Shown here piece after piece: positions 13,670 through 28,037 of a stretch of 28,336 bases of DNA (its first letter is position 1; every line of letters starts with the position of its first letter). The notes below the pieces were generated by a model. The model saw only the letters and a list, made by a program, of their open reading frames with translations, ran no database searches and was not told where the DNA came from. Origin of the DNA: a virus; the IMG/VR virus record IMGVR_UViG_3300022562_000919, positions 1 to 28,336 of that record. One strand, written 5' to 3'. A program made the position numbers and the translations under genes.

Positions 13670-13692
13670 GCTAGTATTTCGTAAATACTAGG
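13670..13692. repeat. 23-bp palindrome at the start site of the distal replication operon
   Basis: Arms CTAGTATTT and AAATACTAG (9 of 9 paired) around CGT. On the leftward strand it begins five bases after a perfect TATAAT, so it covers the predicted start site and the first ~20 transcribed bases. This placement fits a repressor operator. Confidence 0.8.
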
Positions 13693-13696
13693 GCGC

Positions 13697-13725
13697 ATTA
13701 TACCAGCTCTCAAGCGACGAAGCAA
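13697..13725 (-). promoter_or_regulatory. Sigma70-like promoter for the Sak4-to-polymerase operon
   Basis: On the leftward strand: TTGCTT (13725-13720), 17-base spacer, TATAAT (13702-13697). The predicted start is near 13690, inside the palindrome at 13670-13692. It lies in the 92-base gap between two leftward genes and would drive the genes from 13638 to 6695. Confidence 0.8.
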
Positions 13726-13730
13726 CAACT

Positions 13731-13916
13731 TCACTTTAATCCATTAATGGTGTAATGCTTAAGCGTTTCCCTTAGTTCAGCGAAGCTCTTTGTTGCCGCT
13801 TCGAGCGCGTCATATAAAATTCGATTTTCTTCCTCAAGCTCAGCGATGCGCTGTTCAAGACCCGAAATATGTTGCTGTACGGCGGTTGGAAGATTTTTCT
13901 CAGTCATTATGTACAT
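13731..13916 (-). CDS. Small coiled-coil protein
   Basis: 61 residues. Residues about 15-52 form a clear heptad pattern (ISGLEQRIAELEEENRILY), so a dimeric or trimeric coiled coil is expected. GAGG lies six bases before the first ATG; a second ATG three codons in is possible. It is the last gene before the internal promoter. Function unknown. Many phages encode such short coiled-coil proteins near recombination genes. Confidence 0.65.
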   Translation of the reverse strand: MYIMTEKNLPTAVQQHISGLEQRIAELEEENRILYDALEAATKSFAELRETLKHYTINGLK

Positions 13917-13937
13917 ATCTCACCTCAATGTGCACGT

Positions 13938-14246
13938 TCATTTCCCTCCTGTTATTAGGTAGATGGGGTATGACTTTCCGGTCGCGTCCATCCAGTCGAG
14001 AGCTAGCACCAGCTCGCGCGCTAGCACTGATGCTGGTACACCACGAGTTGGATCAACCGGGTCGTATTGCAATAGGAAAGGCGGGCCATGCCGGGGACAT
14101 GGCCTGGGGAAGGTTGTCCACCAATCGGGTGCGTTGATGAGACGAGCCCAAACATCTCCACAAGTGGGACAGAAATACAGGGTGGATGGGAGAGTCTCAT
14201 CCGGAACTCCCCCAAGTATTTCGTTGGAGATGAAGAAGATTGGCAT
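13938..14246 (-). CDS. Small putative zinc-ribbon protein
   Basis: 102 residues. CPTCG (C26, C29) and CPRHG (C50, H53) form a plausible CCCH zinc site, followed by a hydrophobic and helical C-terminus (ELVLALDWMDATG). It starts four bases after the winged-helix gene stop, so it is in the same operon. No known family recognised. A role in nucleic-acid binding or as an inhibitor of a host enzyme is possible but unsupported. Confidence 0.65.
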   Translation of the reverse strand: MPIFFISNEILGGVPDETLPSTLYFCPTCGDVWARLINAPDWWTTFPRPCPRHGPPFLLQYDPVDPTRGVPASVLARELVLALDWMDATGKSYPIYLITGGK

Positions 14247-14250
14247 GAGG

Positions 14251-14598
14251 TTAATCCGTCAGCAACTTGCGTGCTTCGGACAGTTTACGCAAGATGGGTT
14301 CGGCCTTTGCCATTGCGTCGAGGAGTATCTCGATGGGGTCGGCTGCCTTCGTCTCGAGTTCTTCAAGGGTTAGTACCTTGGGTATCGGCTTGTTAATCAA
14401 GAAGTATTGACGGTGGCCTTGCCAGCCGGTGAAGCCCAGCTCTCCGACGCGAGCGAGGCGTGCGAGAGTGCAGCTCATGACGTTCTTTGGCACGCCGAAG
14501 TGCTCGGCAGCAACTTCAACGGTGAAGTGTCCTTTGATCTTGCCGCTTTTGAGAGCATACCGAACTTTGCTAGACAGACCTTTATTGACTTTGACCAT
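14251..14598 (-). CDS. Winged-helix-like DNA-binding protein
   Basis: 115 residues. Residues about 26-52 fit a helix-turn-helix (TVEVAAEHFGVPKNVMSCTL), followed by a possible wing (GFTGWQGHRQYFLI) and a C-terminal helix rich in Leu/Glu. This is the clearest candidate transcription factor in the window, and so a candidate reader of the 23-bp palindromes (inference). GGAG lies seven bases before the ATG. It starts ten bases after the RecB/Cas4-like gene. Confidence 0.7.
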   Translation of the reverse strand: MVKVNKGLSSKVRYALKSGKIKGHFTVEVAAEHFGVPKNVMSCTLARLARVGELGFTGWQGHRQYFLINKPIPKVLTLEELETKAADPIEILLDAMAKAEPILRKLSEARKLLTD

Positions 14599-14608
14599 GA
14601 GGGTTCTC

Positions 14609-15517
14609 CTATATCTGATCGACTTTCATTGGATTCCATCTATAGATGGTGAAGTTCCCCTCTATCCAGTTAGAGGGATTTGGGGAAGCACAAAGCGTAC
14701 GGTAGGCACAGCCGCCGTAGTTAGAGCAGGCGCCTGATTCCTCTCCATCGTGAGGCCAATAGTTTGATAGAAAGGAGTTCTTCATCTCCTGCGTACGCTC
14801 GATCAACCTATCGTGCCACCGTTGGATGACGAACTCCGGACGGTAGACGATGGCTTCCGAGTGGTTGATTTGTGTTTTGAGCACCGCGGTGCCGCGGATG
14901 ATTGCTCCGGCTACGGGGTAGTCGTATTGTTGGGCAGCCCAGCAGTAGCCAGTGAATTGCGCGCGAAGATCCCACTGTTGAGACCAGGTGGCACCCAGGC
15001 GTCCGGTAGTCTTATCGTCTACTACGAACAGGGTGTTGTTCATCACACCCAGCATGTCGAAGCGACCCGAGTATAGTAAGGGGTCGCCTGTGACAGGATG
15101 GGTTATGTCGATCGGGATGGCGAACGAGAATTCAACTGAGGGTTCTCCCGACGAGGTGATGAGTGGCTTGATGTAGTCTGTCGCGGGTGGCCACTGCCTC
15201 AAGTAGGAGAGGTAGGCATCAACGATAGCGTACCACTGTTTGGATTCCTTGGGATCGAAGTCAATGTCTCCATATTCCCGAAGGAGAGCGAGCAGGCCGA
15301 GGGCGACTGCGTCGTCGTAGGATGCTCTGTTGGAATAGTATTCACGGCGGAATGTCTCCAAGCCCTTGGCGTAAGCACCGCCGGCGTTCAGATGAATGTT
15401 GACTGACGCGGGGCAGAGGCCAACGACGTGGCGTAGGTAGAACTTGTGGGGACACTCTGCATAGTCGGCTCTCATTGAAGAGTCGATTGTTGCAGGAAAG
15501 ATTTCTTCAAGATCCAT
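14609..15517 (-). CDS. RecB/Cas4-like PD-(D/E)XK nuclease with Fe-S cysteines
   Basis: 302 residues. The nuclease core is GRFD (D154), then VVDDKT (D167, K169), then QFTGYCWAAQQ (Q188, Y191). Cys22 and C264, C270, C276 are placed as the four Fe-S cluster ligands of AddB/Cas4-type exonucleases. It is expected to resect DNA ends for Sak4/SSB-driven annealing, or to act in replication. The usual N-terminal His of RecB motif I is replaced (GGAYAKGLE). AGGGAG lies seven bases before the ATG. It overlaps the preceding gene by 11 bases. Confidence 0.88.
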   Translation of the reverse strand: MDLEEIFPATIDSSMRADYAECPHKFYLRHVVGLCPASVNIHLNAGGAYAKGLETFRREYYSNRASYDDAVALGLLALLREYGDIDFDPKESKQWYAIVDAYLSYLRQWPPATDYIKPLITSSGEPSVEFSFAIPIDITHPVTGDPLLYSGRFDMLGVMNNTLFVVDDKTTGRLGATWSQQWDLRAQFTGYCWAAQQYDYPVAGAIIRGTAVLKTQINHSEAIVYRPEFVIQRWHDRLIERTQEMKNSFLSNYWPHDGEESGACSNYGGCAYRTLCASPNPSNWIEGNFTIYRWNPMKVDQI

Positions 15518-15830
15518 GGTTGAACTCCCTAAGTGCTTGAGCTATGATTGGAATGTACGCGTGGGTGTATCGACATACGATTACTTTGTTCTCTCGAATT
15601 TTGAATTGGAGTTTGTCTGCTGCATCCAGCAGGGCTGAATCCAATTCCGTTGGCGGCCGCGGTGTCTCTTCGCGAAGGGCTTGACGAAAGTTGTAGAGAT
15701 CGCGGCGAAGGATAGCGGCAGAGACGCCATATGGCGCCGGGTCGACAACAACGAGACCTTTGGTGTGCGCGAGGAGGAATAGCGCACGATAGAGGTCTGG
15801 ATATTTGTCCAGTTTCTTTTGGGAGGGCAT
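15507..15830 (-). CDS. Hypothetical protein, helical with basic N-terminus
   Basis: 107 residues, mixed helix and strand (LVVVDPAPYG; RENKVIVCRY). Residues about 27-60 could hold a helix-turn-helix-like segment, but weakly. It starts five bases after the upstream stop and overlaps the nuclease gene by 11 bases, so it is coupled to it. No family recognised. Confidence 0.65.
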   Translation of the reverse strand: MPSQKKLDKYPDLYRALFLLAHTKGLVVVDPAPYGVSAAILRRDLYNFRQALREETPRPPTELDSALLDAADKLQFKIRENKVIVCRYTHAYIPIIAQALREFNHGS

Positions 15831-15835
15831 GTCGA

Positions 15836-16060
15836 TTAATCCGCTATGAGATCGGATAGGTCGACTACCTTGGTGGTGGCGCGCTTGCGAGCTGGGGTTT
15901 GTGCCAGCGTCTCCCGCTCAAGGGAGATTGCTTTGACTGCGTCCCGCAGTTCATCAAGGTTGTACGGTGGGGACGCGGGATCAGCAAGACCTTCGGCTAC
16001 CTTCTTGTCGTGATCTACGACACGACGGCGAAGATCGTTGAGGATGGATTCTGTTGGCAT
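15836..16060 (-). CDS. Hypothetical small charged protein
   Basis: 74 residues, helical, with basic TPARKRATTK before an acidic C-terminal end. AAGGAG seven bases before the ATG is the strongest ribosome site of this operon part, and an 11-bp hairpin stands 21 bases upstream. Function not recognised. Confidence 0.65.
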   Translation of the reverse strand: MPTESILNDLRRRVVDHDKKVAEGLADPASPPYNLDELRDAVKAISLERETLAQTPARKRATTKVVDLSDLIAD

Positions 16061-16081
16061 TGGATTACTCCTTGGTTAGTG

Positions 16082-16114
16082 GGGAACGGTGGCCCATTGT
16101 AGCCCACCGTTCCC
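16082..16114 (-). other. Hairpin just upstream of the 74-residue protein gene
   Basis: Eleven-base perfect stem (GGGAACGGTGG / CCACCGTTCCC) with an 11-base loop, filling the gap between two leftward genes. There is no U-tract after it. It ends 21 bases before the next start codon. Confidence 0.65.
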
Positions 16115-16120
16115 GACAGG

Positions 16121-16312
16121 TCAACGCTTTAGATTGAGCTGCGCCAGAAACTCCTTGTAGAGTCTGACGGTTAGCTCAGATCGTGCGCCGAGTGGTGGCT
16201 CGCCTGTTAGTGGATCAGCGAGGAACTCGTTGATGGCTGCTGCCACAGACGTGGGCACCCTCAACTTCCAGTCGACCGGACGGTCGGTCTTTGCTTTGCG
16301 GCCTCGTGCCAT
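16121..16312 (-). CDS. Small basic ribbon-helix-helix-like protein
   Basis: 63 residues. A basic N-terminus (ARGRKAK) is followed by a short strand (DWKLRVP) and two helices (SVAAAINEFLAD; SELTVRLYKEFLAQL). This order fits a ribbon-helix-helix DNA-binding fold of the Arc/MetJ type. It could be a second candidate regulator for the palindromes. GAGG lies eight bases before the ATG. The start is two bases after the membrane-peptide stop. Confidence 0.65.
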   Translation of the reverse strand: MARGRKAKTDRPVDWKLRVPTSVAAAINEFLADPLTGEPPLGARSELTVRLYKEFLAQLNLKR

Positions 16313-16314
16313 GA

Positions 16315-16401
16315 TTAATACCTCAATAGTTCTAGTGATACCAACACGAAGGCTAGCAGCACCGTGGTTAACAACAAGATGAAGACGAGTCGCTCGAGCA
16401 T
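16315..16401 (-). CDS. 28-residue single-pass membrane peptide
   Basis: Reads MLERLVFILLLTTVLLAF and then VLVSLELLRY. One hydrophobic segment of about 20 residues (5-23) is flanked by charged ends. The ATG shares its A with the helicase TAA stop (TAATG), GAGG lies seven bases before the ATG inside the helicase end, and the stop is two bases before the next ATG. Signals on both sides argue that it is translated. A small membrane protein could act in lysis inhibition, superinfection exclusion or envelope signalling; none of these is shown by the sequence. Confidence 0.72.
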   Translation of the reverse strand: MLERLVFILLLTTVLLAFVLVSLELLRY

Positions 16402-17897
16402 TACGACACCTCGTGGTAGACGTACGTCAGTGTGCGCTGCGCGCGGGTGACGGCGACGTAGATGAGGTTGTTCTCCTGTTCGAGTTGCGCGCGTGTCTTG
16501 GCGAACTTCGACGGGCAGAGGTCGGGCAGGTAGAAGTAGATGTTGTGGGCCTGCGTTCCCTTTGCACGGTGGATGGACGAGAGAGTGACACCATAGCCTG
16601 GCGTAAAGAGTTTGGCAAGTGTCGACTTGATGGCGGTCACTGAGTCGGATTCTTGGGCGATGGCGGATACTGATGCGTATTTGTCATCGACGATTCCTGC
16701 TCGGGAGTAGAGGCCGCTATCGAGGCAGCGATTGTATTCCGCTTCGTACCACTTATCGAGGCGGTCAACAAAGACTCGAATGTCGTCCGTCTTGAAGCCG
16801 TTGATGAAGGAGATGAGTTGCTTGTCGAAGTTGCCCAATACTGTGACTGGCACCCGGAGGCGAAGCAGACGCATGCCTAATTTGAAGAGGGGCGCGTTGT
16901 TTCGGCAGACGACCAGGTCGTTTGATGTGAGAGCGGAGAGGGTATCCTCTTCGAATACATCAATTTGGGAGACTTCTCCATCTGGGGCGTCAGGCGGACA
17001 GTGGATTGCCGGCACGTAGCTGGCTGCCACATCTGTGATGAGCTTTGGACAGCGATAGGTTAGGGAGAGAGGTAGCTCTGTTGTCGCGAACTTCTCCCTG
17101 AAGCGGTTCATGGAGTTGGCATCTGCACCACGGAAGCCGTAGATAGCTTGGGCTGTATCACCCACCGCGATCAGTCGGCCACCGGATGGTGAGAGGATTC
17201 GCTCGACCACGAGGTGCTGGACTTCATTTAAGTCTTGGGCTTCATCCACGAAGACGAAGTCGAACTTCGGGAATGTTGCGTTGTAGAGGAGGGGGAGATA
17301 GAGCATGTCATCAAAGTCGATGACTTGCATCTCTCGGTTTGACATGGCAAGGGCGCCGGCTGCCCAAGAGGCGAACTCGTCGTCCATTCCTTCGGGGACG
17401 TTGAGTGTGTAGTCGGATAGCAGGGGGAGGAAGTCCTCAGCTCGTGGGTCGAACATTGCATTGTTCTTGGCGAGCGATACGAGGCGAGCCACGTCGCGAA
17501 GGCAATCCTCGATGTAATCGGCGGGGATGATTGTCTTGAGCATGTTGGAGACTTTCCAGCCGTCGACCTTTGGCTTCTTGCCGCGGAAGCACGAGAGGCC
17601 GAGCGAGTGGAATGTGCGGGCGTCTACGCCTGGTGCACAGCGCTGTTGCAGCTCTTGGGCGATTGATTTGTTGAAGGCGAGCATGATGATTGAAGCGTCC
17701 GGATTGGCGAGCTTCGCGCGGGTGGAGGCCTCTAGAATTGTGGTTGATTTGCCGCTTCCGGCGACAGCTTCCACGATGGCGTTGCCCGTTTGGGATTCAA
17801 TGAAAGTGAAGATCTCCCTCTGGTAGGGAGACCAGTCGACGGTTTCATTTGGAGCAAGGGCGGGAATCTCCAGATCGAATGGATTGAATGTGGGCAT
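16401..17897 (-). CDS. UvrD/Rep-type superfamily 1 DNA helicase
   Basis: 498 residues, compact for the family. Motifs are in order: Walker A AVAGSGKST (44-52), Ia around FNKSIA (75-80), TFHSLG (95-100), motif II FVDEAQD (216-222), motif III GDTAQAIYGFRGAD (246-259), LTYRCP (279-284), motif V TLSSIHRAKG (438-447), and motif VI YVAVTRAQ (480-487). It should be an ATP-driven 3'-5' DNA helicase for replication or recombination. GAGG lies nine bases before the ATG. The upstream gene ends one base before it, and the membrane peptide overlaps its stop. All catalytic motifs look intact. Confidence 0.95.
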   Translation of the reverse strand: MPTFNPFDLEIPALAPNETVDWSPYQREIFTFIESQTGNAIVEAVAGSGKSTTILEASTRAKLANPDASIIMLAFNKSIAQELQQRCAPGVDARTFHSLGLSCFRGKKPKVDGWKVSNMLKTIIPADYIEDCLRDVARLVSLAKNNAMFDPRAEDFLPLLSDYTLNVPEGMDDEFASWAAGALAMSNREMQVIDFDDMLYLPLLYNATFPKFDFVFVDEAQDLNEVQHLVVERILSPSGGRLIAVGDTAQAIYGFRGADANSMNRFREKFATTELPLSLTYRCPKLITDVAASYVPAIHCPPDAPDGEVSQIDVFEEDTLSALTSNDLVVCRNNAPLFKLGMRLLRLRVPVTVLGNFDKQLISFINGFKTDDIRVFVDRLDKWYEAEYNRCLDSGLYSRAGIVDDKYASVSAIAQESDSVTAIKSTLAKLFTPGYGVTLSSIHRAKGTQAHNIYFYLPDLCPSKFAKTRAQLEQENNLIYVAVTRAQRTLTYVYHEVS

Positions 17898-17898
17898 G

Positions 17899-18114
17899 TC
17901 AATTGTCCTCGTGATAAAGAATGGTTGCGTGTGGCAGCTGGGGAATCTCTAGGAGATGCGGCTGCCAGGTAGTGGAAACATCCAGGTCGAGGCGTGCGAT
18001 TTCGGCCTCGAGATGGCGCTCGGCTTCGACGCGATCGTTGGCGACGATCACGGAGAATGGATAAGAGTAGCCGTCGAATGGCAGGTTCGTGCAGATGTAG
18101 ACTTTCATGGGCAT
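17899..18114 (-). CDS. Hypothetical small protein
   Basis: 71 residues with a strand-rich N-terminus (KVYICTNLPFDGYSYPFSVI) and an acidic helix (DRVEAERHLEAEIARL). ATGs at codons 1 and 3 are both possible; AGGA fits the first. It sits one base from the genes on both sides, so it is tightly packed in the operon. Family not recognised. Confidence 0.6.
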   Translation of the reverse strand: MPMKVYICTNLPFDGYSYPFSVIVANDRVEAERHLEAEIARLDLDVSTTWQPHLLEIPQLPHATILYHEDN

Positions 18115-18115
18115 G

Positions 18116-18523
18116 TTAATCCTGTTGGTCGTTGCGGTTGATCCAGTGGGCGTCTATTACGCTCGGGAAGTAGAGATGTGACGTGTGGGTATCGTCGCCG
18201 CGGAGGGTGAGCTGCACGCGGCCTGTTGAAGATGGTTTGTGTGGGGGAATGATGCCGGTGACATCGTACCAACCATCGTCGAGGCGGACGGTATCGCCAA
18301 TGGCAACTTCAATATTATTGTCGTCGTAGACGAGAGTGGGTTTCGCCGGTGGGGTTGATATAGGGTCGGGGATGGTCATGATTTCTCCGTAGTCGAGAAT
18401 GGATAGGAGGGTAGCCGCGAGATCACGGCGCTCGTCGTATGTCATGGATTCGCCGCGATATAGGCGGTACATGACGGATTCGAGGCGATGCTTGTCGTCG
18501 AGTTCTATTGCGAAGATTTCCAT
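18116..18523 (-). CDS. Hypothetical protein with SH3-like beta region
   Basis: 135 residues. The N-terminal 50 residues are helical (RRDLAATLLSILDYG). About 65-125 is beta-rich, with IGDTVRLDDGWYDVTGIIPPH and VQLTLRGDD, similar in pattern to small barrel or SH3-like domains. GAGG lies nine bases before the ATG. No function can be named. Confidence 0.6.
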   Translation of the reverse strand: MEIFAIELDDKHRLESVMYRLYRGESMTYDERRDLAATLLSILDYGEIMTIPDPISTPPAKPTLVYDDNNIEVAIGDTVRLDDGWYDVTGIIPPHKPSSTGRVQLTLRGDDTHTSHLYFPSVIDAHWINRNDQQD

Positions 18524-18527
18524 TGTG

Positions 18528-18743
18528 TTAGTCCTCGTAGTAGGAAATGATTTGGTCGACGAGGAATTGTATCTCGTCGGGGAGTAGCTCGTTGGTTATG
18601 TCGTGGCCACCGAGCCAGACGTGCACGATGTCAAAGTACGCAGCGGTTGGTGGCTCAATGTCGGAGCCGTCATAGGCTGGGATGTAGCTTCCAACTACTG
18701 TTACTGGAAGGGTGAGTTCCGCGTTGTGTTTACTCAGTACCAT
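18528..18743 (-). CDS. Hypothetical small acidic protein
   Basis: 71 residues, beta-rich N-terminal part (AELTLPVTVVGSYIPAY) and an acidic helical end (PDEIQFLVDQIISYYED). GAGG lies nine bases before the ATG, inside the preceding gene, and the two genes overlap by 14 bases. The pattern resembles small phage proteins of unknown role. Confidence 0.6.
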   Translation of the reverse strand: MVLSKHNAELTLPVTVVGSYIPAYDGSDIEPPTAAYFDIVHVWLGGHDITNELLPDEIQFLVDQIISYYED

Positions 18744-18939
18744 GATTGGGATCCTCGAGGTCGGATAGGAGTTGACGAAGGAGGGCCGTATATGATGGGC
18801 CCGTGATGTTCGTGATGTTTAAAGGCAAGCTGTGCCGAGTAAAGGTGGTGGTTGGGCAATACTCGGCAAGCATGCGATTGAGGTCCTCGACGTCGAGGAG
18901 CACTCGTCTGATTTGTTGTAGGAGGAGGAGAGTTTCCAT
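18730..18939 (-). CDS. Hypothetical small helical protein
   Basis: 69 residues, Leu-rich helix at the start (LLLLQQIRRVLLDVEDLNRML) and another near the end. The ATG shares its A with the upstream TAA (TAATG); no good ribosome site, so coupling is likely. A second frame over the same bases is open but lacks this linkage. Family not recognised. Confidence 0.55.
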   Translation of the reverse strand: METLLLLQQIRRVLLDVEDLNRMLAEYCPTTTFTRHSLPLNITNITGPSYTALLRQLLSDLEDPNHGTE

Positions 18940-19502
18940 TAGGGCTGACCATAAGGGTCGTGGGCTGCTAGCTTGTGGGGATAATTCCAGCCGTTGATGA
19001 GATCAAACCCGTGGCGCTGGTTAGAGCTGCCTGGAGTATAGAAGCCTAGATCGAGTTGGAGTTGGGATTCTCCAACGTGGAAGGCGCGGCGGATGAAGGG
19101 ATCATCGCTTAGTGGTAGCTGGCCGACGCAGTATGGGCAGAAGGAGAGATGCACCGCGTTGTATTCGATGCGCAGGTCGGGCGGTGGCTCTGTGTGAGGG
19201 CCCAGCTTTTCGATGGGGATGTACTCATGGCGAGTTTGCATGTTGTCGAGCTGCCGCTTGATGAAGATGGAGTCGCTTATGGGCGCGATCCAAGAGGAGG
19301 AGCAACGGCAAGTGTAGTGGTTGTAGAAGACTACCTTGCAGATGTCTAGGGGATTTCGTAATCTGGTTGGCGCGCGGGGGCGGATGGCGCGAGCAATGAC
19401 TCGCGTTGGATTGGGTGGCGTTTTAGCCTTGGGATTGCGTTTGGGTTTGGGTGCTGCAAGGACTTTTTGCAAGGCTTTATCGAAGTCGTCAAAGATGTCC
19501 AT
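18939..19502 (-). CDS. Putative zinc-binding hypothetical protein
   Basis: 187 residues. The N-terminal ~50 residues are basic and Pro-rich (KPKRNPKAKTPPNP). A cysteine set CRC (C65, C67) and CPYC (C122, C125) could bind one zinc. The C-terminal third is uncharged and aromatic. GAGG lies seven bases before the ATG, and a 9-bp hairpin stands 20 bases upstream. The basic arm and zinc site suggest nucleic-acid binding (inference). Confidence 0.65.
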   Translation of the reverse strand: MDIFDDFDKALQKVLAAPKPKRNPKAKTPPNPTRVIARAIRPRAPTRLRNPLDICKVVFYNHYTCRCSSSWIAPISDSIFIKRQLDNMQTRHEYIPIEKLGPHTEPPPDLRIEYNAVHLSFCPYCVGQLPLSDDPFIRRAFHVGESQLQLDLGFYTPGSSNQRHGFDLINGWNYPHKLAAHDPYGQP

Positions 19503-19522
19503 GTTGATACCTCATCAGTGAT

Positions 19523-19546
19523 GGGGGAACCACATAAGGTTCCCCC
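19523..19546 (-). other. Hairpin just upstream of the 187-residue protein gene
   Basis: Nine-base perfect stem GGGGGAACC / GGTTCCCCC around a six-base loop. No U-tract follows on either strand. It ends 20 bases before the start codon and six bases after the preceding stop, the same placement as at 16082-16114. Confidence 0.65.
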
Positions 19547-19552
19547 TTGGGG

Positions 19553-19795
19553 TTAGCGGAGAATCTCGAACCTATCCGTTAGGTAGGCAGAAGGCCCATC
19601 CATAGAAAGGAATTCTTGGAGGATCTCGATACACTCGAATTCATCCTTGGCACGGTAAGCCGAGGTGTGCTCTTTGGATACTTCTTCGGCGATGGCATCT
19701 GTAATGCAGACGAGATGATATTGTTCAAGGCCGTCGTGCGGCTCAATGGGTGAAACGGTCAAGATGTGATCTCCGATTGATAGATAGACGTTCAT
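19553..19795 (-). CDS. Hypothetical small protein
   Basis: 80 residues, alternating strand and helix (VYLSIGDHILTVSPI; YHLVCITDAIAEEVSKEH; DEFECIEILQEFLSM). No family recognised. A predicted promoter with TTGAAT and TAAAAT lies about 60 bases upstream, so it may head its own transcript as well as being part of the long leftward unit. Confidence 0.62.
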   Translation of the reverse strand: MNVYLSIGDHILTVSPIEPHDGLEQYHLVCITDAIAEEVSKEHTSAYRAKDEFECIEILQEFLSMDGPSAYLTDRFEILR

Positions 19796-19855
19796 CTAGG
19801 GTAAATCCTCGTCGGTTGATTGGAAATCCGGCAAGTAAGGCCGGGGCCAGCTTGG

Positions 19856-19884
19856 ATTTTATAATAGTGGGGCGGGAAATTCAA
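19856..19884 (-). promoter_or_regulatory. Predicted sigma70-like promoter before the 80-residue gene
   Basis: Leftward strand: TTGAAT (19884-19879), 17-base spacer, TAAAAT (19861-19856). It lies in the 121-base gap at 19796-19916, which has no gene. Imperfect inverted arms (AGCTTGAATTT and AAAATCCAAGCT on that strand) bracket the promoter and may be an operator. Confidence 0.55.
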
Positions 19885-19916: not shown

Positions 19917-20435
19917 TTATGACTCCTCGTCTGTATCGAGATTGTCTTTGGCATCCCAATCGGGAAGTGGCGATGGGGTTGGCTTGAAGATGTCGGGTAT
20001 AGAGTCAGCTGGGTTCTTGAATAGTCCTTGAGCCAGCGCGGTGTAGTCTATGGAGTCTTGGGGAACGTCGGGGATGTCGTTGAGTTGGGATAGGCATTGT
20101 GCCCAGTCGAGTTCATCTCGCCGGGCGAACTCAACCCACGCGGAGTGGTTCTCCAGGTCGTCTAGGTTGGCATAGATTAGAACCTGGCGGGTGCGGAGTG
20201 TCGTCGCCATGTGTTGATGTTCACTGGCGAGCTTGATGTTGGAGGGGCCGCCTTCCTTGCGAAGGGCTTTGGCTTCGGATTCCAGGGCACGGATGAAACC
20301 GTAGTATTGGTAGCGTAGCTTTTCGGCTGCGCGTATCGAGGGGGTGAGTAACTTTATGGTGGCGTCTTGGGATATCTTTGAGTATAAGAGCCAGAAGGAG
20401 GGTGGATAGTTTGCGGGCTTGCGAGATTGGGGCAT
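19917..20435 (-). CDS. Hypothetical protein, first gene of the long leftward block
   Basis: 172 residues. Mostly helical and charged in the middle (IRAAEKLRYQYYGFIRALESEA), with an acidic C-terminal tail (WDAKDNLDTDEES). GAGG lies eight bases before the ATG. It is the first gene after the divergent promoter with the palindrome operator, so it is probably made early. I see no conserved motif. Acidic early proteins are often host-takeover factors, but that is speculation. Confidence 0.68.
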   Translation of the reverse strand: MPQSRKPANYPPSFWLLYSKISQDATIKLLTPSIRAAEKLRYQYYGFIRALESEAKALRKEGGPSNIKLASEHQHMATTLRTRQVLIYANLDDLENHSAWVEFARRDELDWAQCLSQLNDIPDVPQDSIDYTALAQGLFKNPADSIPDIFKPTPSPLPDWDAKDNLDTDEES

Positions 20436-20480: not shown

Positions 20481-20503
20481 GCGAGTATTTGGTAAATACT
20501 CGC
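20481..20503. repeat. 23-bp palindrome at the main leftward promoter
   Basis: Perfect arms GCGAGTATTT / AAATACTCGC around GGT; pairing extends one more base on each side. On the leftward strand it starts five bases after TATAAT at 20513-20508, the same geometry as at 13670-13692. Confidence 0.8.
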
Positions 20504-20507: not shown

Positions 20508-20536
20508 ATTATAGGGTAAGTTTGCGGACGAGGCAA
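20508..20536 (-). promoter_or_regulatory. Sigma70-like promoter of the long leftward block
   Basis: Leftward strand: TTGCCT (20536-20531), 17-base spacer, TATAAT (20513-20508). The predicted start falls in the palindrome at 20481-20503. It would drive the gene block starting at 20435. Confidence 0.78.
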
Positions 20537-20867: not shown

Positions 20868-21365
20868 ATGGCTGAGCGTAACAATCCCTATTCTCTGAAA
20901 GTCGAACTGGACGCCGAAGCTGATGCAGTTGTGGTCATCGTGCGTGAGAAGGACGCGAAGGGTAACTTCGAAGAGATCGACCGCGAGGTCTTTCCGCTGT
21001 CCGACGTGCATGAGGACTGCCGTCCGCTGAGCGATCTTTATGGCTATAGCAAGCTCTTGCAGGATCGTTCGAGCGATACCAAGGCCGGGCCGGAGAAGCT
21101 CGACGCGATGCGTGACGTTCGTCAGCAGTTGAGCGAAGGGCAGTGGGAGCGGGAGCGGCGTGCTGGCGCACCGACCGTGTCGGCAGAAGTCGAGGCTCTC
21201 GCGTCGATCAAGGGCGTGTCGGTTGGCGACATTCAGAAGGCGCTTCGTTCCTTCAGCAAGGAGCAGAAGGAGAAGATCCTGTCCAACCCGCAGGTCATGG
21301 AGCTGGCCGAGACCATCCGGGCCAGCCGCGACAGTGTCGCCGTCGACCTGACCGACATGGCATAA
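20868..21365 (+). CDS. 165-residue protein, probably highly expressed; paralogue of the gene at 21763-22260
   Basis: 165 residues. The acidic beta-rich N-terminus (about 8-45) precedes helical segments. Residues 58-116 align with 51-110 of the leftward neighbour (shared elements SxxLQxR, KLxAM, EGxWxxER, E-x-L-x-SIK). AGGAG lies eight bases before the ATG. It stands alone between a strong promoter and a strong terminator, and its codons are visibly more GC-rich and biased than those of neighbours, so high expression is likely. The family is not known to me. A virion, DNA-binding or host-modifying role cannot be told apart from sequence. Confidence 0.85.
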   Translation: MAERNNPYSLKVELDAEADAVVVIVREKDAKGNFEEIDREVFPLSDVHEDCRPLSDLYGYSKLLQDRSSDTKAGPEKLDAMRDVRQQLSEGQWERERRAGAPTVSAEVEALASIKGVSVGDIQKALRSFSKEQKEKILSNPQVMELAETIRASRDSVAVDLTDMA

Positions 21366-21392
21366 TCTATAACAGTTTCCTCATCGGTGTTT

Positions 21393-21416
21393 GGCCCCTT
21401 CGGGGGCCTTTTTTTT
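21393..21416 (+). terminator. Intrinsic terminator after the 165-residue gene
   Basis: GGCCCC / GGGGCC stem with a TTCG tetraloop followed by eight T. It is 27 bases after the stop codon and should end the monocistronic transcript. Confidence 0.93.
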
Positions 21417-21500
21417 GGCCCGGTGATAGGACGCGCTGGCGTGCGCCTTCTGTTGGGTAATTTTACCGGGCTTTCCAGACAGGAAAAATAAAACGCAAAT

Positions 21501-21525
21501 AAAAACCCCCGGCCGGAACCGGGGG
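21501..21525 (-). terminator. Intrinsic terminator of the leftward paralogue unit
   Basis: CCCCCGG / CCGGGGG stem with a six-base loop, read leftward and followed by TTTTT. It lies seven bases after the 59-residue gene stop. On the other strand a short CTTTTC follows, so it may also be a weak rightward stop. Confidence 0.88.
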
Positions 21526-21532
21526 CGCTTTT

Positions 21533-21762: not shown

Positions 21763-22260
21763 TTACAGCATATCGTCCAGAACTCCAGTAGCGGGGGCTT
21801 TAGCGCGCTTCGCTTCAACCTGCGCCACCTCGTCCTTGTATTTCTCCCTAAGGACACTCCTCTGGTCCTCGTCCAAGGAATTCCATGCGGCCTGTACCTC
21901 GGCCACCGAAACCTTGAATCCCTTGGCAACCTTGATCGAGTGTAGTACCTCAATTATGGCCGGGAGAATCCGAGGGCCAACCTTACGCTCTTTAGCCCAT
22001 TCGCCTTCGAGCCATCGAGCACTGACCTCGTCCATGGCCATCAGCTTGCCGAGCGGGTCTTCCTTGAACTGGCTGGTCCTCTGCTGGAGGGCCGTCGAAA
22101 GCCCGTGAAGCATCAGCTGCTGCTGGATTTCCACCGGATAATCGTCGAAGACATAATACCGATGTGACAGAATTTCGTCGCCATCTTTTACGTTCATCGT
22201 CACGCTCATCGTGGTGGTATCCAATTCCGGACGCAGACCCATTTTAATGGTTTTAGCCAT
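21763..22260 (-). CDS. 165-residue paralogue of the rightward protein at 20868
   Basis: 165 residues. The N-terminal beta-rich part (residues 1-40) precedes a helical core that aligns with the 20868 protein (GLSTALQQRTS, KLMAMDEV, LEGEWAKERKVGP, IIEVLHSIK). Both genes are the same length yet lie on opposite strands in convergent order. AGAGG lies about nine bases before the ATG, and a TTGACA promoter is ~80 bases upstream. Its codon use is more ordinary than that of its paralogue. No known domain. Confidence 0.85.
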   Translation of the reverse strand: MAKTIKMGLRPELDTTTMSVTMNVKDGDEILSHRYYVFDDYPVEIQQQLMLHGLSTALQQRTSQFKEDPLGKLMAMDEVSARWLEGEWAKERKVGPRILPAIIEVLHSIKVAKGFKVSVAEVQAAWNSLDEDQRSVLREKYKDEVAQVEAKRAKAPATGVLDDML

Positions 22261-22338
22261 TTTGCTTTACCTCTCATCGATGTTAAAGAATCCGCGGCGC
22301 TGGGGCCGGGGAACTAGCTAACCTTAGCCAGTGAAGAT

Positions 22339-22367
22339 ATTCTCTCATAGTCCGGCCAGGATGTCAA
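22339..22367 (-). promoter_or_regulatory. Sigma70-like promoter of the leftward paralogue unit
   Basis: Leftward strand: TTGACA (22367-22362, consensus), 17-base spacer, GAGAAT (22344-22339). The small GCTAA-N2-TTAGC palindrome lies between it and the start codon at 22260. Confidence 0.7.
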
Positions 22368-22510
22368 GCCTTTTTTGGGGTATGGGGATGAATTTCTTTT
22401 GGTCTCATCCTCTGTTGAGAATTATCCCCGGCCTACACCCCCGGCGGGGGGTGGGGGGCTCCCGTCATGTATCCACCCGGGCGAGCCGACAAAATTTATC
22501 AATTTCATGG

Positions 22511-22533
22511 GCGAGTATTTACTAAATACTAGG
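22511..22533. repeat. 23-bp palindrome upstream of the packaging genes
   Basis: Left arm GCGAGTATTT; right arm AAATACTAGG, a mix of the two arm types. Seven central base pairs plus one outer pair are complementary. It lies 107 bases before the TerS start. No TATAAT box at the five-base spacing on either strand. Confidence 0.75.
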
Positions 22534-22580
22534 CCGTCCAATTCCCCAATAAATGCCCCAATATCCCCCTAAATTTCCAT

Positions 22581-22609
22581 TTGCCGAATCCCCTATCCTG
22601 CGCTAAACT
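22581..22609 (+). promoter_or_regulatory. Possible rightward promoter for TerS
   Basis: TTGCCG (22581-22586), 17-base spacer, TAAACT (22604-22609). Weak match; chosen because it is the best-spaced pair between the palindrome and the TerS start. Confidence 0.35.
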
Positions 22610-22639
22610 TTAACATAGGTATAGTGGAATTTTTAAATC

Positions 22640-23116
22640 GTGGCTGAAACTCAAATCAAAGAAGTATCGCACCGGCACGAAGCCATCATTGATTGGCTTC
22701 TTGCTAATCCGCAGGTGAAAAACCTGCAGGTGCTGTGCGACCGATTGAATGTCAGCCGGAGTTGGTTATCTATCGTGATGCGCAGTGATGCTTTCAGAGC
22801 TGAGTATGAGAAGCGCCGCGATGAGTATAATCAACTTCACGCAGATAAAGTTCAATCTCGCCTCTACGAGGTTGCCCTTAAAGGTATCGAAAAGGTCCTC
22901 GACGCCCTCGACGCGGACGAGGTGGATCCCCGCTTCGCCCTCGATTCTGTCGATAAAGCAACCAATAGGTTGGGCTTTAGTCCGTCGAGCGGCTCCCGCC
23001 CGCAAGTAGCGATTAACGTGGGCATAGTCGATAAGGGACTTCTTGCAAGCGCCCGTGAGAAAATGCGGCAGGTCACTGTCGTTAATGTAGAACCGGAGAC
23101 TTGTGAAGAAGGATGA
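22640..23116 (+). CDS. terS: Terminase small subunit
   Basis: 158 residues from a GTG start. Residues about 28-48 form a helix-turn-helix (LQVLCDRLNVSRSWLSIVMR), followed by a charged helix (EYEKRRDEYNQL) and an oligomerisation-type helix, as in phage small terminases that recognise pac/cos DNA. The C-terminus is an extended tail. The ribosome site is weak (GTGGAA). A nuclease gene overlaps its end and TerL follows, which supports the call. It should hand DNA to TerL for packaging. Confidence 0.85.
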   Translation: MAETQIKEVSHRHEAIIDWLLANPQVKNLQVLCDRLNVSRSWLSIVMRSDAFRAEYEKRRDEYNQLHADKVQSRLYEVALKGIEKVLDALDADEVDPRFALDSVDKATNRLGFSPSSGSRPQVAINVGIVDKGLLASAREKMRQVTVVNVEPETCEEG

Positions 23117-23600
23117 CCTCGAGTGGGTGCGATTAGCAGATTCCATACCTCCGTTTGCTCGGAAGAAGCGGCTGCACGGGCGGCGGAGGATGGGTATCAA
23201 ATACGAAGAGAAGGTCAAAGAGCACTTCGAAGAAGCCTTCCCTCCCAAGGTCGGGCACCCGTCGTTCATCTCTGGTCCGTGGCTAGAGTACAAAATATTA
23301 AACGAAGGCAAAGTCCGCTACGCACAGCCGGATGGCTTACTCGTGTCTTTGGATACGGGGGTGCTGACTATATGCGAGATCAAATACCAGCACACCGCGC
23401 AGGCGTATTGGCAGGTGATGGACAAGTATTTGCCTCTTGTGGAGAGACTATTTAATACTACCAATATGTGGAAGATTGGCGTCTGCGAGATTGTTAAGTG
23501 GTATGATTGTGCGGTGGTATTTCCCGCACATGTGACGCTGCGCGACTGTATTGCATCAGTTCGGCCTGGGGAATTCGGAGTCCACATATGGAAGCCGTGA
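23103..23600 (+). CDS. PD-(D/E)XK nuclease between the terminase genes
   Basis: 165 residues from GTG with GGAG four bases upstream; overlaps TerS by 14 bases. A basic N-terminal region (ARKKRLHGRRR) precedes the nuclease core: QPDG (D77), then CEIKYQ (E92, K94). Such VRR/RecB-like folds cut DNA or resolve branches. Placement in the packaging cluster suggests it trims or resolves replicative DNA before or during packaging (inference). The TerL start overlaps its last 13 bases. The active-site trio looks complete. Confidence 0.8.
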   Translation: MKKDDLEWVRLADSIPPFARKKRLHGRRRMGIKYEEKVKEHFEEAFPPKVGHPSFISGPWLEYKILNEGKVRYAQPDGLLVSLDTGVLTICEIKYQHTAQAYWQVMDKYLPLVERLFNTTNMWKIGVCEIVKWYDCAVVFPAHVTLRDCIASVRPGEFGVHIWKP

Positions 23601-25081
23601 GGGAGGAAATTCCACTTGAGGAAATAATTCATCTGGCAGCAATAGATGATGATTTCTACGGTCGGCATTTCTTCCCCAAGACTATCCGCCAACAAACTCC
23701 ACCTTTCCACAAGAAGGTAGATCTACTTCTAGCAGATCCAGAGAAGCGACACCTCGCCATTAAGATATTCCGCGGCGGAGCAAAGACCACAAAGCTGCGT
23801 GTTTTCACGTCTAAACGTATCGCATATGGTGTCTCGCACACCATTTTGTTTATATCGAAAACCCAAGACCATGCGCTAAAGACAATCAATTGGATAAAGA
23901 AGAATGTCGAATATAATAAGCTGTGGTCACAGACATTCGGCTTAAAACCTGGGCCTAAGTGGACCGGGGAAGAAATCACCATCCTGCATGGCGTAGAGGC
24001 TTTCCCCATAACCGTCGTAGCGCTTGGCATCACCGGGCAGACACGCGGTGTTAATATTGATGACTATCGCCCCGACCTGATTGTCGTAGACGATCCATGC
24101 GATGAGATTAACACCGCGACCTTTGAGCAGCGGGAGAAGATTTCGAATATCTTCTTTGGCGCCCTTGAGAAATCTCTCGCACCCCGGAGCGAATCGTGGG
24201 ATGCGAAGATGGTTCTCTTGCAGACCCCATTGGACGGGGATGATCTTATCGAGAGGTGCATGAAAGATCCGCAATGGCACACCGCGGAGTTCTCCTGCTT
24301 CGATGATAGTGGCGATAGTAACTGGCCAGCGCGGTGGAGTACCGAGGAACTGCTTGCAGATAAGCAGGCGCATATCGATAGGAATCAACTCTCCTTGTGG
24401 ATGCGAGAGATGGAGGTGAAGATAGTCTCTCCGGAGCTATCACACTTCAGGCAAGAATGGTTGATGAATTGGGATGTCTTGCCAGATGGCATGATTACCT
24501 ACATAGGTGTTGATCCCACGCCACCGCCGAAGGATGCCGAGCAGAAAGCTGTTCTCGACCCGAGGCGGCTCGATGATGCGGCAATCGTCGCATTTGGGTT
24601 GTGGCAAGGAAAGGCATTCTTGCTAGACTATTATACCTGTAAGTCTCCTAATCCGGATGAGTTGATCTCTAAGATTTTTGAGTTCGTCATCCGGTTTAAG
24701 CCGTTGAGGGTTGGCTTTGAGTCTATTCTCTTTGCGAGAACTATTAAGTTCTACCTTGAGAAAGAGATGCGGAAGCGTCATCACTTCTTCACAGTTGAAG
24801 CAGTTGAAGATCGGAGGAAGAAGTCTCTTCGGATAGTGCAGGCATATACTGCTCGCGCTAGTGGGCGCACACTCTATGTGCATAGAACGCACACGGAGTT
24901 CATTGAGCAGTTTGTACGCTATCCTAATGTGGAACACGACGACCTGCTAGACGCGGGTGCGATAGCGCTCGATATGATTAATCCAATTTTGGATGGCGAA
25001 TATATCGAGGGTATCTACGAGATTCTTGAGCAAGAAGAGAAAGCCTTACCTGATCTAGGGGAGTGGAGATCTGCTATATGA
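23588..25081 (+). CDS. terL: Terminase large subunit
   Basis: 497 residues from ATG at 23588, chosen because GGAG lies seven bases upstream and it cuts the overlap with the nuclease gene to 13 bases. The ATPase has Walker A FRGGAKTT (61-68) and Walker B PDLIVVDDP (D168/D169). The RNase H-fold nuclease has GVDPT (D309), FESI (E379) and HDDLLDA (D451/D452). It powers DNA translocation into the prohead and cuts the DNA. The stop overlaps the portal start (ATGA). All catalytic positions are present. Confidence 0.96.
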   Translation: MEAVREEIPLEEIIHLAAIDDDFYGRHFFPKTIRQQTPPFHKKVDLLLADPEKRHLAIKIFRGGAKTTKLRVFTSKRIAYGVSHTILFISKTQDHALKTINWIKKNVEYNKLWSQTFGLKPGPKWTGEEITILHGVEAFPITVVALGITGQTRGVNIDDYRPDLIVVDDPCDEINTATFEQREKISNIFFGALEKSLAPRSESWDAKMVLLQTPLDGDDLIERCMKDPQWHTAEFSCFDDSGDSNWPARWSTEELLADKQAHIDRNQLSLWMREMEVKIVSPELSHFRQEWLMNWDVLPDGMITYIGVDPTPPPKDAEQKAVLDPRRLDDAAIVAFGLWQGKAFLLDYYTCKSPNPDELISKIFEFVIRFKPLRVGFESILFARTIKFYLEKEMRKRHHFFTVEAVEDRRKKSLRIVQAYTARASGRTLYVHRTHTEFIEQFVRYPNVEHDDLLDAGAIALDMINPILDGEYIEGIYEILEQEEKALPDLGEWRSAI

Positions 25082-27009
25082 GCATGCAATTAGAATTAAA
25101 ATTCGACAGTGATCTCCATACTAAATTGCGGCAGGCGGTGCGAGATCGGTACCAAATGTCGTACAACAAGATGTCTTGCTACTACGAGACGTGGAAGGAT
25201 TCTGAAGAACGCTTCATCGCGTACCTTCCCACTAAGGAAGGCGATCTCCTTCGGAAGCAGCGGCGCAAAGATGGCACCCCGCAGTTTACTACACTGCAGG
25301 TGCCGTATTCTTATGCGATGCTTCTCACCGCGCAGACCTACTGGACTACGGTGTTCTTGAGCCGTGACCCAGTGTTTCAGTATAGCGCTCGCCACGGTGC
25401 GCCGGAGATGCAGGTGCAGGCGATTGAAGCTCTGCTGAGTTATCAGACTCTGGTTGGCGAGCAGTTGGTGCCGCTCTATATTTGGCTCTTGGATAAGGCT
25501 AAGTACGGCTTGGGTATTGTCTGCAATTATTGGGAGATAGAGCAGTCGATTGTCTCCTCAATTGAAGAAGCCCCAGATACATACCTTGGTCTTCCATTGC
25601 CGGGGAAGACGAAGAAGATTCGTCGATCGAAGAGAATCCGGGGATACGCTGGGAATAAGCTCTTCAATGTACGTCCATACGACTGGTATCCTGATCCGCG
25701 GGTGCCGGTGAAAGACTTCCAGCGTGGAGAATTCTGTGCGAGGGCGGTTGAGCTGAGTTGGTCAGACCTTGTGAAGGGTGAAGAAGACGGACGATATATG
25801 AACGTCGAAGTTCTTCGCAAGCGGAAGTATATGCGTCAGCGGGATGAGCAGCAAGGTACCGGCCAGGTTGAATATCCAGAGAAGAATATAACCGCAGATG
25901 CGATGGATATTGGATATACCACTGGCGTAGAGATGGTTATCCAGCTCATCCCTAAAGATTGGAATCTGGGATCGAGTACCTACCCGCAGAAGTGGATCTT
26001 TACTCTGGCGGATAACGATGTTCTCGTCGAGGCACGCCCGTTCGCCCATTACCACGCGAAGTATCCCTACGCGGTGCAGGAGTATGAACAGGATGGCTAT
26101 GCGTTAGTCCCACGGTCAATGCTGGAGATAGCTGATCCGCTGAATGATACACTGACGTGGCTTTTCAATTCGCATTTCCACGCGGTGCGGAAAGTGCTGA
26201 ATGATCAGCTAGTGGTTGATCCAAGCAAGGTTGCTATGAAGGATCTCGAAGATCCTACACAGGGACGTCTTATTCGCTTAAAACCGCAAGCCTGGGGCAC
26301 CGATCCAAGGCTGGCGGTGCACCAACTGCAAGTTGTCGATGTTACACAGAATCATCTTCGAGACGCCCAGATTGTTGCTGAGATGATGCAGCGTGTCACT
26401 GGAGTGACAGACAATCTGATGGGTGTAGTAAATCCAGGAGGGCGTAAGACGGCGACGGAGGTTCGCACCTCAAGTTCGTTTGGAACGAACCGCTTGAAGA
26501 TGCAGGCTGAATACGACTCGGCAATGGGTTGGGCACCGCTCAGCCAAATGATGCTGCAGAACACTCAGCAGTATTATGATGAAGAGCAGTGGTTTAAGAT
26601 TGCTGGAGACTTGGTAGAAGGGAAGCAGTATGTCCAAGTTACACCTGACGATATTCAGGGCTTCTACGACTTCGTTCCAGTCGACGGTACGTTGCCGGTA
26701 GATCGATTTGCGCAAGCTAATCTGTGGAGAGAGCTGATGGCGCAGATGTCTAAAATGCCGGAGCTTATGCAGCAGTATAGCATGGGAAAGATTTTCAGCT
26801 ATGTGGCGAAGCTCTCCGGTGCAAAGAATATCGATCAGTTTAAGATTGAGGTGGTGCCAGATGCTATGGCAGCGCAGCAAGCACAGGCTGGTAACTTGAT
26901 TCCAATGGGAGGAAGAAATGGCAACGGACGAGGAACTGTCGGAGGCGAGGGAGAATCTGCACGCCCTCCGCTCCCTACTCAAATCTCGGGGGTGGGCCCT
27001 AGTGGCTAG
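25078..27009 (+). CDS. Portal (head-tail connector) protein
   Basis: 643 residues from the ATG that overlaps the TerL stop; an upstream in-frame ATG would lie inside TerL. Sequence features of podovirus-type portals include PYSYAMLLTAQTYWTTVFL in the N-terminal part, NDTLTWLFNSHFHAVRKVLN in the centre, and VTGVTDNLMGVVNPGGRKTATEV. The C-terminal end is Gln/Gly-rich. It forms the ring through which DNA is packaged and to which the tail attaches. The last 92 bases are also coding in another frame for the next gene. Confidence 0.88.
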   Translation: MSMQLELKFDSDLHTKLRQAVRDRYQMSYNKMSCYYETWKDSEERFIAYLPTKEGDLLRKQRRKDGTPQFTTLQVPYSYAMLLTAQTYWTTVFLSRDPVFQYSARHGAPEMQVQAIEALLSYQTLVGEQLVPLYIWLLDKAKYGLGIVCNYWEIEQSIVSSIEEAPDTYLGLPLPGKTKKIRRSKRIRGYAGNKLFNVRPYDWYPDPRVPVKDFQRGEFCARAVELSWSDLVKGEEDGRYMNVEVLRKRKYMRQRDEQQGTGQVEYPEKNITADAMDIGYTTGVEMVIQLIPKDWNLGSSTYPQKWIFTLADNDVLVEARPFAHYHAKYPYAVQEYEQDGYALVPRSMLEIADPLNDTLTWLFNSHFHAVRKVLNDQLVVDPSKVAMKDLEDPTQGRLIRLKPQAWGTDPRLAVHQLQVVDVTQNHLRDAQIVAEMMQRVTGVTDNLMGVVNPGGRKTATEVRTSSSFGTNRLKMQAEYDSAMGWAPLSQMMLQNTQQYYDEEQWFKIAGDLVEGKQYVQVTPDDIQGFYDFVPVDGTLPVDRFAQANLWRELMAQMSKMPELMQQYSMGKIFSYVAKLSGAKNIDQFKIEVVPDAMAAQQAQAGNLIPMGGRNGNGRGTVGGEGESARPPLPTQISGVGPSG

Positions 27010-27199
27010 TATTGCAGAGGGGCAAATTGAGTCCAGGCGAAATGTTCTTGGGGATATGCGCGTGGTAACTCAAGAGGATGTGGCGGAACACAACTTTATG
27101 GTGGGAGAGAAGTACGGCATAGCCGCCTTCCTAGCTCTTCCACAAAATCTGATAGAGGCGGCGGAGGAATTAGTGTATGAACGCAGTGACGGAGAATAA
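26918..27199 (+). CDS. Small helical protein overlapping portal
   Basis: 93 residues. The ATG has a strong GGAGG five bases upstream, inside the portal gene, so 92 bases are read in two frames. The protein is helical and charged (EARENLHALRSLLKSRGWALV; GQIESRRN), with a conserved-looking pattern of short phage proteins found after portals. Its end overlaps the scaffold gene by 23 bases. Role unknown; a head-assembly accessory is plausible. Confidence 0.8.
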   Translation: MATDEELSEARENLHALRSLLKSRGWALVASIAEGQIESRRNVLGDMRVVTQEDVAEHNFMVGEKYGIAAFLALPQNLIEAAEELVYERSDGE

Positions 27200-28019
27200 T
27201 ACTGTCGTGGAGCCTGAAGCTCCCGATTCAGATACCCAGGATGCATTCGATACGTTTGTCGACGAGTTTGATAATGAGTCGAATGAACCTGATCTGGCTG
27301 AAGATAAGCCAGCGGAACAACCGAAGGTTGAAGAGGCGAAGCAGGAACCGGAAGTACCCGCGGAGAAACCGGAACCTGTAGCTGCTGAAGAGACCGAAAA
27401 GGAAGTCCCGCCGGAAGTTGTCCAGCCAGCTCCGCCGGAGCCTGTGGCTCAGACTCCCGCAGAGACGCCGCCAGGACAGTCGTATGACGAGTTGAAGTCT
27501 AACGCTGTCGCTGAACTTGAGAAGAGATATGCTCTCAGTCAGGAAGATGCGGATGCAATGATTAGTGAGCCAGAGGCTGTTATCCCGAAGTTGGCCGCCA
27601 GGCTGTACGTGGACATCTATGAGAATATGATGAATATGTTGCAGCATCAACTTCCTCACGTAGTGAGGGATGTGCAGACGACCAGCTCGAGACAACAGAA
27701 GGATGAAGAAGCCTTCTATACAGCTTGGCCTGCCTTGCGCAATGTGGACAGAAATGAACTCATTCGCATCGGCCAGATGTATCGGCAGCTGAATCCACAG
27801 GCAACAAGGGAGCAGTTCATTCAGGATGTGGGCGTGCAGAGCATGGTTAGATTTAGACTGCCGATACCCGGCTATAATGCGCCACCCCCGCAACCCGATG
27901 TAACTCCGCACATGCCTGCTAGACCGACGGCCCCCGTAATGCCGAATCAGTCCACCGGAGGGAATCTGTTCGCAGATTTGGCCGATGAGTGGATTGAGGA
28001 TGATAAAAACGGGAGCTAG
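27177..28019 (+). CDS. Scaffolding-like protein
   Basis: 280 residues. Residues about 1-105 are acidic and rich in Pro, Glu and Ala; about 105-225 is helical with a YDELKSNAVAELEKRY segment; the C-terminus is Pro-rich with an acidic end (ADLADEWIEDDKNGS). An acidic disordered arm, helical middle and position between portal and capsid fit a phage scaffolding protein that shapes the prohead. GGAGG lies nine bases before the ATG. Its TAG stop lies inside a copy of the 23-bp palindrome. Confidence 0.75.
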   Translation: MNAVTENNTVVEPEAPDSDTQDAFDTFVDEFDNESNEPDLAEDKPAEQPKVEEAKQEPEVPAEKPEPVAAEETEKEVPPEVVQPAPPEPVAQTPAETPPGQSYDELKSNAVAELEKRYALSQEDADAMISEPEAVIPKLAARLYVDIYENMMNMLQHQLPHVVRDVQTTSSRQQKDEEAFYTAWPALRNVDRNELIRIGQMYRQLNPQATREQFIQDVGVQSMVRFRLPIPGYNAPPPQPDVTPHMPARPTAPVMPNQSTGGNLFADLADEWIEDDKNGS

Positions 28020-28037
28020 TATTTGTTAAATACTTGC
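28015..28037. repeat. 23-bp palindrome before the major capsid gene
   Basis: Left arm GCTAGTATTT, right arm AAATACTTGC around GTT. It overlaps the stop codon of the scaffold-like gene and lies 20 bases before the capsid start. A possible -35/-10 pair (TTGAGG at 27994, 17-base spacer, TAGTAT at 28017) would place a promoter box inside the palindrome, but the match is weak. Confidence 0.75.

Follow-up and report, generated by a model that had tools for sequence, protein, structure and literature searches.

The Arc/MetJ/CopG repressors (e.g., P22 Arc and Mnt) are small strand-helix-helix proteins that recognize palindromic operators over early promoters, with Arc and Mnt acting at one control region. 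The dual regulator p4 of phi29 acts at both early and late promoters by means of inverted repeats. In the cluster A mycobacteriophages (L5 repressor), which are temperate, one repressor serves the stoperators, 13-bp asymmetric sites that are oriented with transcription, number more than 20 per genome and lie at promoters and in short intergenic spaces; the motif variant is private to each genome, the repressor gene carries its own site and the repressor is a monomer with helix-turn-helix and stoperator domains (PMC6550527, PMC9283540). In the temperate phage SPbeta, the 15-bp repeat SPBRE, present in several intergenic and promoter regions, was found from sequence 24 years before its repressor MrpR, which has the tyrosine-recombinase fold (PMC10516654).

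Here we analyze a family of 23-bp palindromes in the IMG/VR virus record IMGVR_UViG_3300022562_000919, a 28.3-kb incomplete phage genome (positions 1 to 28,336; hereafter the window). We predict, with a probability of roughly 0.6, that a single symmetric DNA-binding regulator encoded by the phage uses these palindromes as its operators, the ribbon-helix-helix (RHH) protein of 16121-16312 being the most likely one. The set itself, its genome-wide placement, the selection on its arms in relatives and its overlap with promoters were computed directly.

Palindromes of the window and its relatives

The core AGTATTT-N3-AAATACT occurs exactly at 13673, 20484, 22514 and 28018 and with one change at 3915, in agreement with the five copies listed in an earlier note on this DNA. 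That note had also placed four of them in gaps before gene blocks, which holds: one copy (13670-13692; GCTAGTATTTCGTAAATACTAGG) lies 32 bp upstream of 13444-13638 (minus strand), within the leftward replication operon at its gap 13639-13730; a second, perfect copy (20481-20503; GCGAGTATTTGGTAAATACTCGC) is 46 bp upstream of 19917-20435 (minus strand), where the long leftward early block starts; a third (22511-22533; GCGAGTATTTACTAAATACTAGG) precedes the small terminase gene (22640-23116) by 107 bp; and a fourth (28015-28037; GCTAGTATTTGTTAAATACTTGC) overlies the scaffold stop codon, 21 bp upstream of the capsid ATG (28058) and ending 6 nt from the capsid Shine-Dalgarno sequence. The copy with the change (3912-3934; GCGAGTAATTAATAAATACTCGC) lies inside the coding sequence of a large virion protein (1321-6825), and its membership of the set is uncertain. 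The chance expectation for the core in the window is about 0.7 even with 3 mismatches allowed, and the most repeated 6-bp dyad has 4 copies against a maximum of 1 (184 times) or 2 (16 times) in 200 dinucleotide-preserving shuffles, the comparison with shuffled sequence that the earlier note had suggested. From outside to centre the half-site reads GGGC[G/T]AGTATTT. The outer arms are of the GCG or GCT type, as first described, though not always complementary: the outermost bases are often alike on both sides without pairing, a pattern that a protein reading each half-site would explain better than a hairpin would. In 5/5 copies the plus strand has T as the third spacer base, regardless of the direction of the neighboring gene.

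By their portal proteins, the named relatives of the window are Microcystis phage Mel-JY34 (46%) and Vibrio phage VS-ABTNL-3 (40%), on neither of which a literature search found a paper, along with Caulobacter phage Kuura and one Desulfofustis phage; related portals are encoded by 492 IMG/VR stretches. The exact window motif has no match in 37 + 19 records, two unrelated contigs excepted, and we abandoned the idea of its conservation in relatives in favor of genome-specific sets. About 15 relatives carry their own repeated palindrome of approximately 25 bp, located in small gaps between genes at junctions that recur. The earlier note had held that a lack of conservation in relatives would speak against its proposal; the exact letters are indeed absent from them, but the feature itself is present. 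Examples are the Desulfofustis phage (GCTATGTCCCAANTTGGGACATAGC, nine copies), VS-ABTNL-3 (CAATCGN6CGATTG, three copies in gaps) and the contigs G009 (CGGGGGTAAN7TTACCCCCG), G031 and G033 (GCGGTTAAN8TTAACCGC), G018 (GGGGGTTAN9TAACCCCC) and G024 (GATTATATN3ATATAATC). Nearly all sets share a common build, with a length of about 25 bp, half-sites that are GC-rich outside and AT-rich inside and a variable centre, and they number 4-9 palindromes per genome. No set was seen in Kuura.

A hold-out round of 20 more contigs, most of them fetched via the terminase, added sets in G038, G044, G048, G054 and L229, that is, five genome-spread palindrome sets against two weak or low-complexity mirror controls; those of G020 and G013 were recognized after this round. 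Of 49 contigs no shorter than 24 kb, 14 scored 9 or more through palindromes and 3 through the control mirror repeats, several contigs of both classes owing this to terminal repeats or low-complexity sequence. Palindrome families were set aside in G046 (near contig ends), G047 (low complexity), G049 (clustered), G022 (terminal copies) and G025 (coding), and we rejected the virion-gene copies of the window, G020 and G044 as one conserved site because they fall in differing places of the protein. Sequence matches in unrelated DNA were likewise discarded, namely L005, L090/L091 (helicase match only), L311, L312 and an Anaerolineales metagenome-assembled genome. In the unrelated IMG/VR contig L005, the match is a tandem array of CGAGTATTTGGTAAATACTCG-type palindromes (1820-2370), which share the window's core by chance or from another cause; in the Anaerolineales genome (bin10018), the core lies within a longer palindrome of the ACCGAGTATTTTNAAAATACTCGGT type on at least four contigs (L285, L289, L293, L306).

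The strongest single result comes from two pairs of relatives, G020/G048 (about 75% DNA identity) and G031/G033 (about 72%), which together offer six site pairs at orthologous junctions; the gaps of the window align with those of none of the relatives, leaving its own five sites without a close relative for comparison. Identity is 106/112 in the arms (95%), against 24/36 in the spacers, 242/351 in the intergenic flanks and 850/1209 in the coding flanks (arms versus flanks, p = 3e-9; arms versus spacer, p = 5e-5). The sole two changes at the post-capsid site are a symmetric exchange of A..T for C..G. Judged by this sequence comparison, the palindromes of the relatives are under selection that keeps the arms and not the centre, because arms are 95% identical as opposed to 67-69% in spacer and flanks.

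A rescan of whole genomes with each consensus, using gene calls made in the relatives by a simple script, returned 64 sites, 48 of which are centred between genes where the intergenic fraction predicts 6.0. The recurring junctions carry differently spelled palindromes from phage to phage, and because sites were chosen by similarity, their counts per class are descriptive. One such junction is where early and late genes diverge, next to the terminase small subunit and a pair of paralogous genes (see below); the window copies at 20481 and 22511 belong to it. Others are the gaps after the DNA polymerase (G009, G020, G024, G031, G033, G038, G048, G054, G013), after the capsid gene (G009, G018, G020, G024, G038, G044, G048, Mel-JY34) and after the exonuclease (G009, G044, Mel-JY34). 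The 3′ end of the window's own capsid gene falls outside the record. A palindrome just upstream of the capsid gene was rejected as a conserved site, being found in the window only.

Promoters at the sites

Two of the window copies adjoin putative early promoters of the sigma70 type on the minus strand, one at 13697-13725 (TTGCTT at 13725-13720, a 17-bp spacer and TATAAT at 13702-13697) and the other at 20508-20536 (TTGCCT, 17 bp, TATAAT). Both end 7 nt ahead of the core AGTATTT, with identical spacing of -35 box, -10 box and palindrome; therefore, the palindromes at 13670 and 20481 begin at the expected transcription start. At three sites of G038, TTGACA immediately precedes the palindrome, whose right arm contains a -10 box (CATAAT or AATAAT); one of these sites is in the promoter of the RHH gene (21295-21516), 33 bp upstream of it. 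Promoter scores of at least 15 are reached at 18/77 sites in the gene direction, compared with 5/75 in the opposite direction and 24/279 other gaps (p 0.003 and 0.0008, respectively). A -10 box at a fixed distance in every site was sought and discarded, promoters being present in a subset only. These positions support repression of early promoters by a protein that would bind the palindromes. Accordingly, of the phage-wide operator or activator set that the earlier note had proposed, the operator half is supported by the sets in relatives, the intergenic placement, the selection on arms and the coincidence with early promoters; the activator half is not supported because, at visible promoters, a protein bound to the site would stand in the way of RNA polymerase. 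Promoters of a phage sigma factor or phage RNA polymerase would be asymmetric and oriented with the genes; the sites are symmetric and stand beside genes of either strand.

The candidate regulator and rival readings

The best candidate for the palindrome binder is probably a 63-residue protein whose minus-strand gene (16121-16312) belongs to the leftward early operon and lies downstream of the promoter and palindrome at 20481. Its family, with members of 60-80 residues, is found in most relatives. The AlphaFold model (mean predicted local distance difference test score 86.7) displays an extended N-terminal stretch followed by helices at 21-31 and 43-62, the predicted strand-then-two-helices layout of RHH domains of about 45-60 residues. 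In a profile search of the PDB, the top matches are RHH proteins with strand and helices in register (9kkd, E value 0.005; EndoAI, 0.07; NikR, 0.15; 2k6l, 0.37). Variability in the family is greatest in the strand with which RHH proteins read DNA. RHH proteins fold as intertwined dimers. A member is encoded in each of the 13 near-complete genomes that carry a set, a count that includes the divergent copies of VS-ABTNL-3 (L007, 34511-34741) and L009 (9872-10105), which were assigned by synteny or by eye.

Several results weigh against this assignment or against operators as such. The Pfam model RHH_3 matches 2/30 family members, with a best E value of 0.007 that is under the gathering score, and Foldseek, run with the isolated 63-residue chain, matched no RHH chain. 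The family also occurs in 22/26 genomes without a detected set, so its association with the sets is not significant (p 0.28). A shared operator predicted for G045, whose RHH strand is like that of the window, failed to appear, there being no window-like sites. The assignment is, therefore, probable only. Beyond the protein, for about three of every four sites no host promoter can be recognized, and most of these sites are internal to late or replication operons.

Should the binder be another phage protein, which we consider rather unlikely, it could be one of a pair of paralogs of about 165 residues or some small regulator that differs from phage to phage. The pair (20868-21365, plus strand; 21763-22260, minus strand) borders the divergent control region of most relatives, often as two copies, and occurs in 12/13 genomes with a set, and the very different palindromes of VS-ABTNL-3 and L009 would fit different regulators. 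Against the pair, it is absent from L009, which carries a set; its model shows three strands and helices for which a fold search gave no meaningful match to a DNA-binding protein, and it has no Pfam, PHROG or PDB match. Two strong intrinsic terminators (21393-21416 and 21505-21526) lie downstream of and facing 20868-21365, enclosing that gene. The earlier note had named two candidate products; the RHH protein fared well, recurring in most relatives, and the winged-helix-like 14251-14598, which might yet be the regulator in the window phage, did not, occurring in 1/29 genomes and in no relative. Still less likely are sites of a host transcription factor exploited by the phage, as with the CtrA sites of some alphaproteobacterial phages; phages with host-factor sites are known (PMC9437464). 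The spelling is private to each phage and the hosts differ, which would suit such a factor. Nevertheless, an extended-motif scan of one genome each for 84,980 bacterial and archaeal species found 29 stretches and no regulon-like genome, with several stretches in one uncultured Anaerolineales genome inside a longer palindrome of another kind, and across relatives a common GC-outer/AT-inner half-site drifts gradually, which is more in keeping with a partner carried by the phage. The dyad of the CtrA site, TTAA-N7-TTAA, is absent from the window consensus, the nearest approach being that of G031 with N8.

It is improbable, to a slightly greater degree, that the palindromes work as transcript hairpins, i.e., as terminators, processing sites or mRNA stabilizers. 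They do lie between genes, and the post-capsid gap of several relatives has an intrinsic terminator (palindrome without terminator in 7, terminator without palindrome in 8, both in 1), suggesting that the two might replace each other there, on counts that are too small. Intrinsic terminators have a GC-rich stem followed by a T-run, and a run of 5 or more T follows 1/59 sites between co-directional genes; at such genes, sense-strand G-T and A-C mismatches are equal (29:29), so that G-U pairing is not used. For want of both T-runs and G-U pairing we take the palindromes not to be terminators or selected RNA hairpins. Moreover, the copies within one genome are alike in sequence beyond what pairing needs, sites lie over promoters and at divergent regions and an Rfam search gave no match. 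Least probable of all are sites of DNA transactions, whether replication, packaging, recombination or partition by a fusion of a ParB-like domain to a DNA methyltransferase (10796-12097, minus strand). The fusion is kept in most relatives, and palindromes of 25 bp are similar in size to recombinase or centromere sites; yet the placement of the sites goes with gene starts and with promoters, not with a single origin or end, and no tyrosine integrase (PF00589) was matched in 30 records (the window and 29 relatives), a search that did not extend to serine integrases or partition systems.

The window further encodes structural and packaging proteins (terminase, portal, scaffold, the start of the capsid gene and the large virion protein) and a replication and DNA-processing complement (primase, dUTPase, a Sak4-like protein, exonuclease, helicase and a split DNA polymerase). 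The polymerase comprises two open reading frames overlapping by 4 nt (7960-8709 and 8706-10337, minus strand); it is also split in VS-ABTNL-3 (24872-25768 and 26300-28006) and is one reading frame in L009. The 1834-residue virion protein (1321-6825, plus strand) has a HEVIGH motif like a zinc-metalloprotease site.

A possible switch and its known counterparts

What we infer from the above is which protein binds, that it represses and that it acts as a roadblock at the sites within operons. Early promoters of the host type would fire, and the RHH protein would accumulate from the leftward block. It would then bind the palindromes of about 25 bp and, covering the transcription start at 13670 and 20481, close its own promoter and that of the replication block. 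The promoterless copies, i.e., those before the terminase and capsid genes and, in relatives, after the capsid and DNA polymerase genes, would be bound by the same protein, which inside operons would most likely slow, stop or meter the passing RNA polymerase in the manner of a stoperator; the distribution of palindromes and terminators in the post-capsid gap fits such a roadblock but does not prove it. The differing sets of many related phages at similar junctions point to a fast-changing phage-encoded switch controlling the whole genome. More tentatively still, this large group of tailed phages of roughly 40-50 kb, which seem to lack a tyrosine integrase, might share a private, fast-diverging operator code, in which each pairs a tiny RHH repressor with a hypervariable strand to 4-9 cognate 25-bp palindromes, closing early promoters and roadblocking the post-capsid and post-polymerase junctions in place of terminators. 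If true, this would be a global transcription regulator for a whole uncharacterized phage group together with at least 15 protein-operator pairs forming a natural series, diverged from one another at corresponding places in the genome, offering a direct way to study a regulator changing together with all its own sites and bearing on genome-wide operators or roadblocks outside temperate phages.

A literature search for RHH regulators with genome-wide palindromes in lytic phages found no paper. Unlike Arc and Mnt, the candidate would serve a whole-genome set, and it has a longer inter-helix loop and a conserved DP...YGARS motif. The sites differ from those of phi29 p4, to which we liken them by description, in lying at or after the start rather than far upstream. 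From the stoperators they are set apart as palindromes of about 25 bp, at 4-9 per genome, with an RHH candidate and no tyrosine integrase found in the 30 records, and from SPBRE and MrpR by being palindromic with an RHH candidate; no MrpR-like recombinase-fold repressor was matched by PF00589 in the window and the 29 relatives, although a degenerate form could escape the profile. With symmetric sites, another class of candidate protein and no tyrosine integrase in these records, the present case is not a member of either system. Nevertheless, as with the mycobacteriophage stoperators, sites of the window and its relatives are found at early promoters as well as in small gaps between genes, and, like SPBRE, the palindrome is a short repeated element first seen from sequence alone; it would work like the stoperators and SPBRE/MrpR, which are its closest known counterparts.

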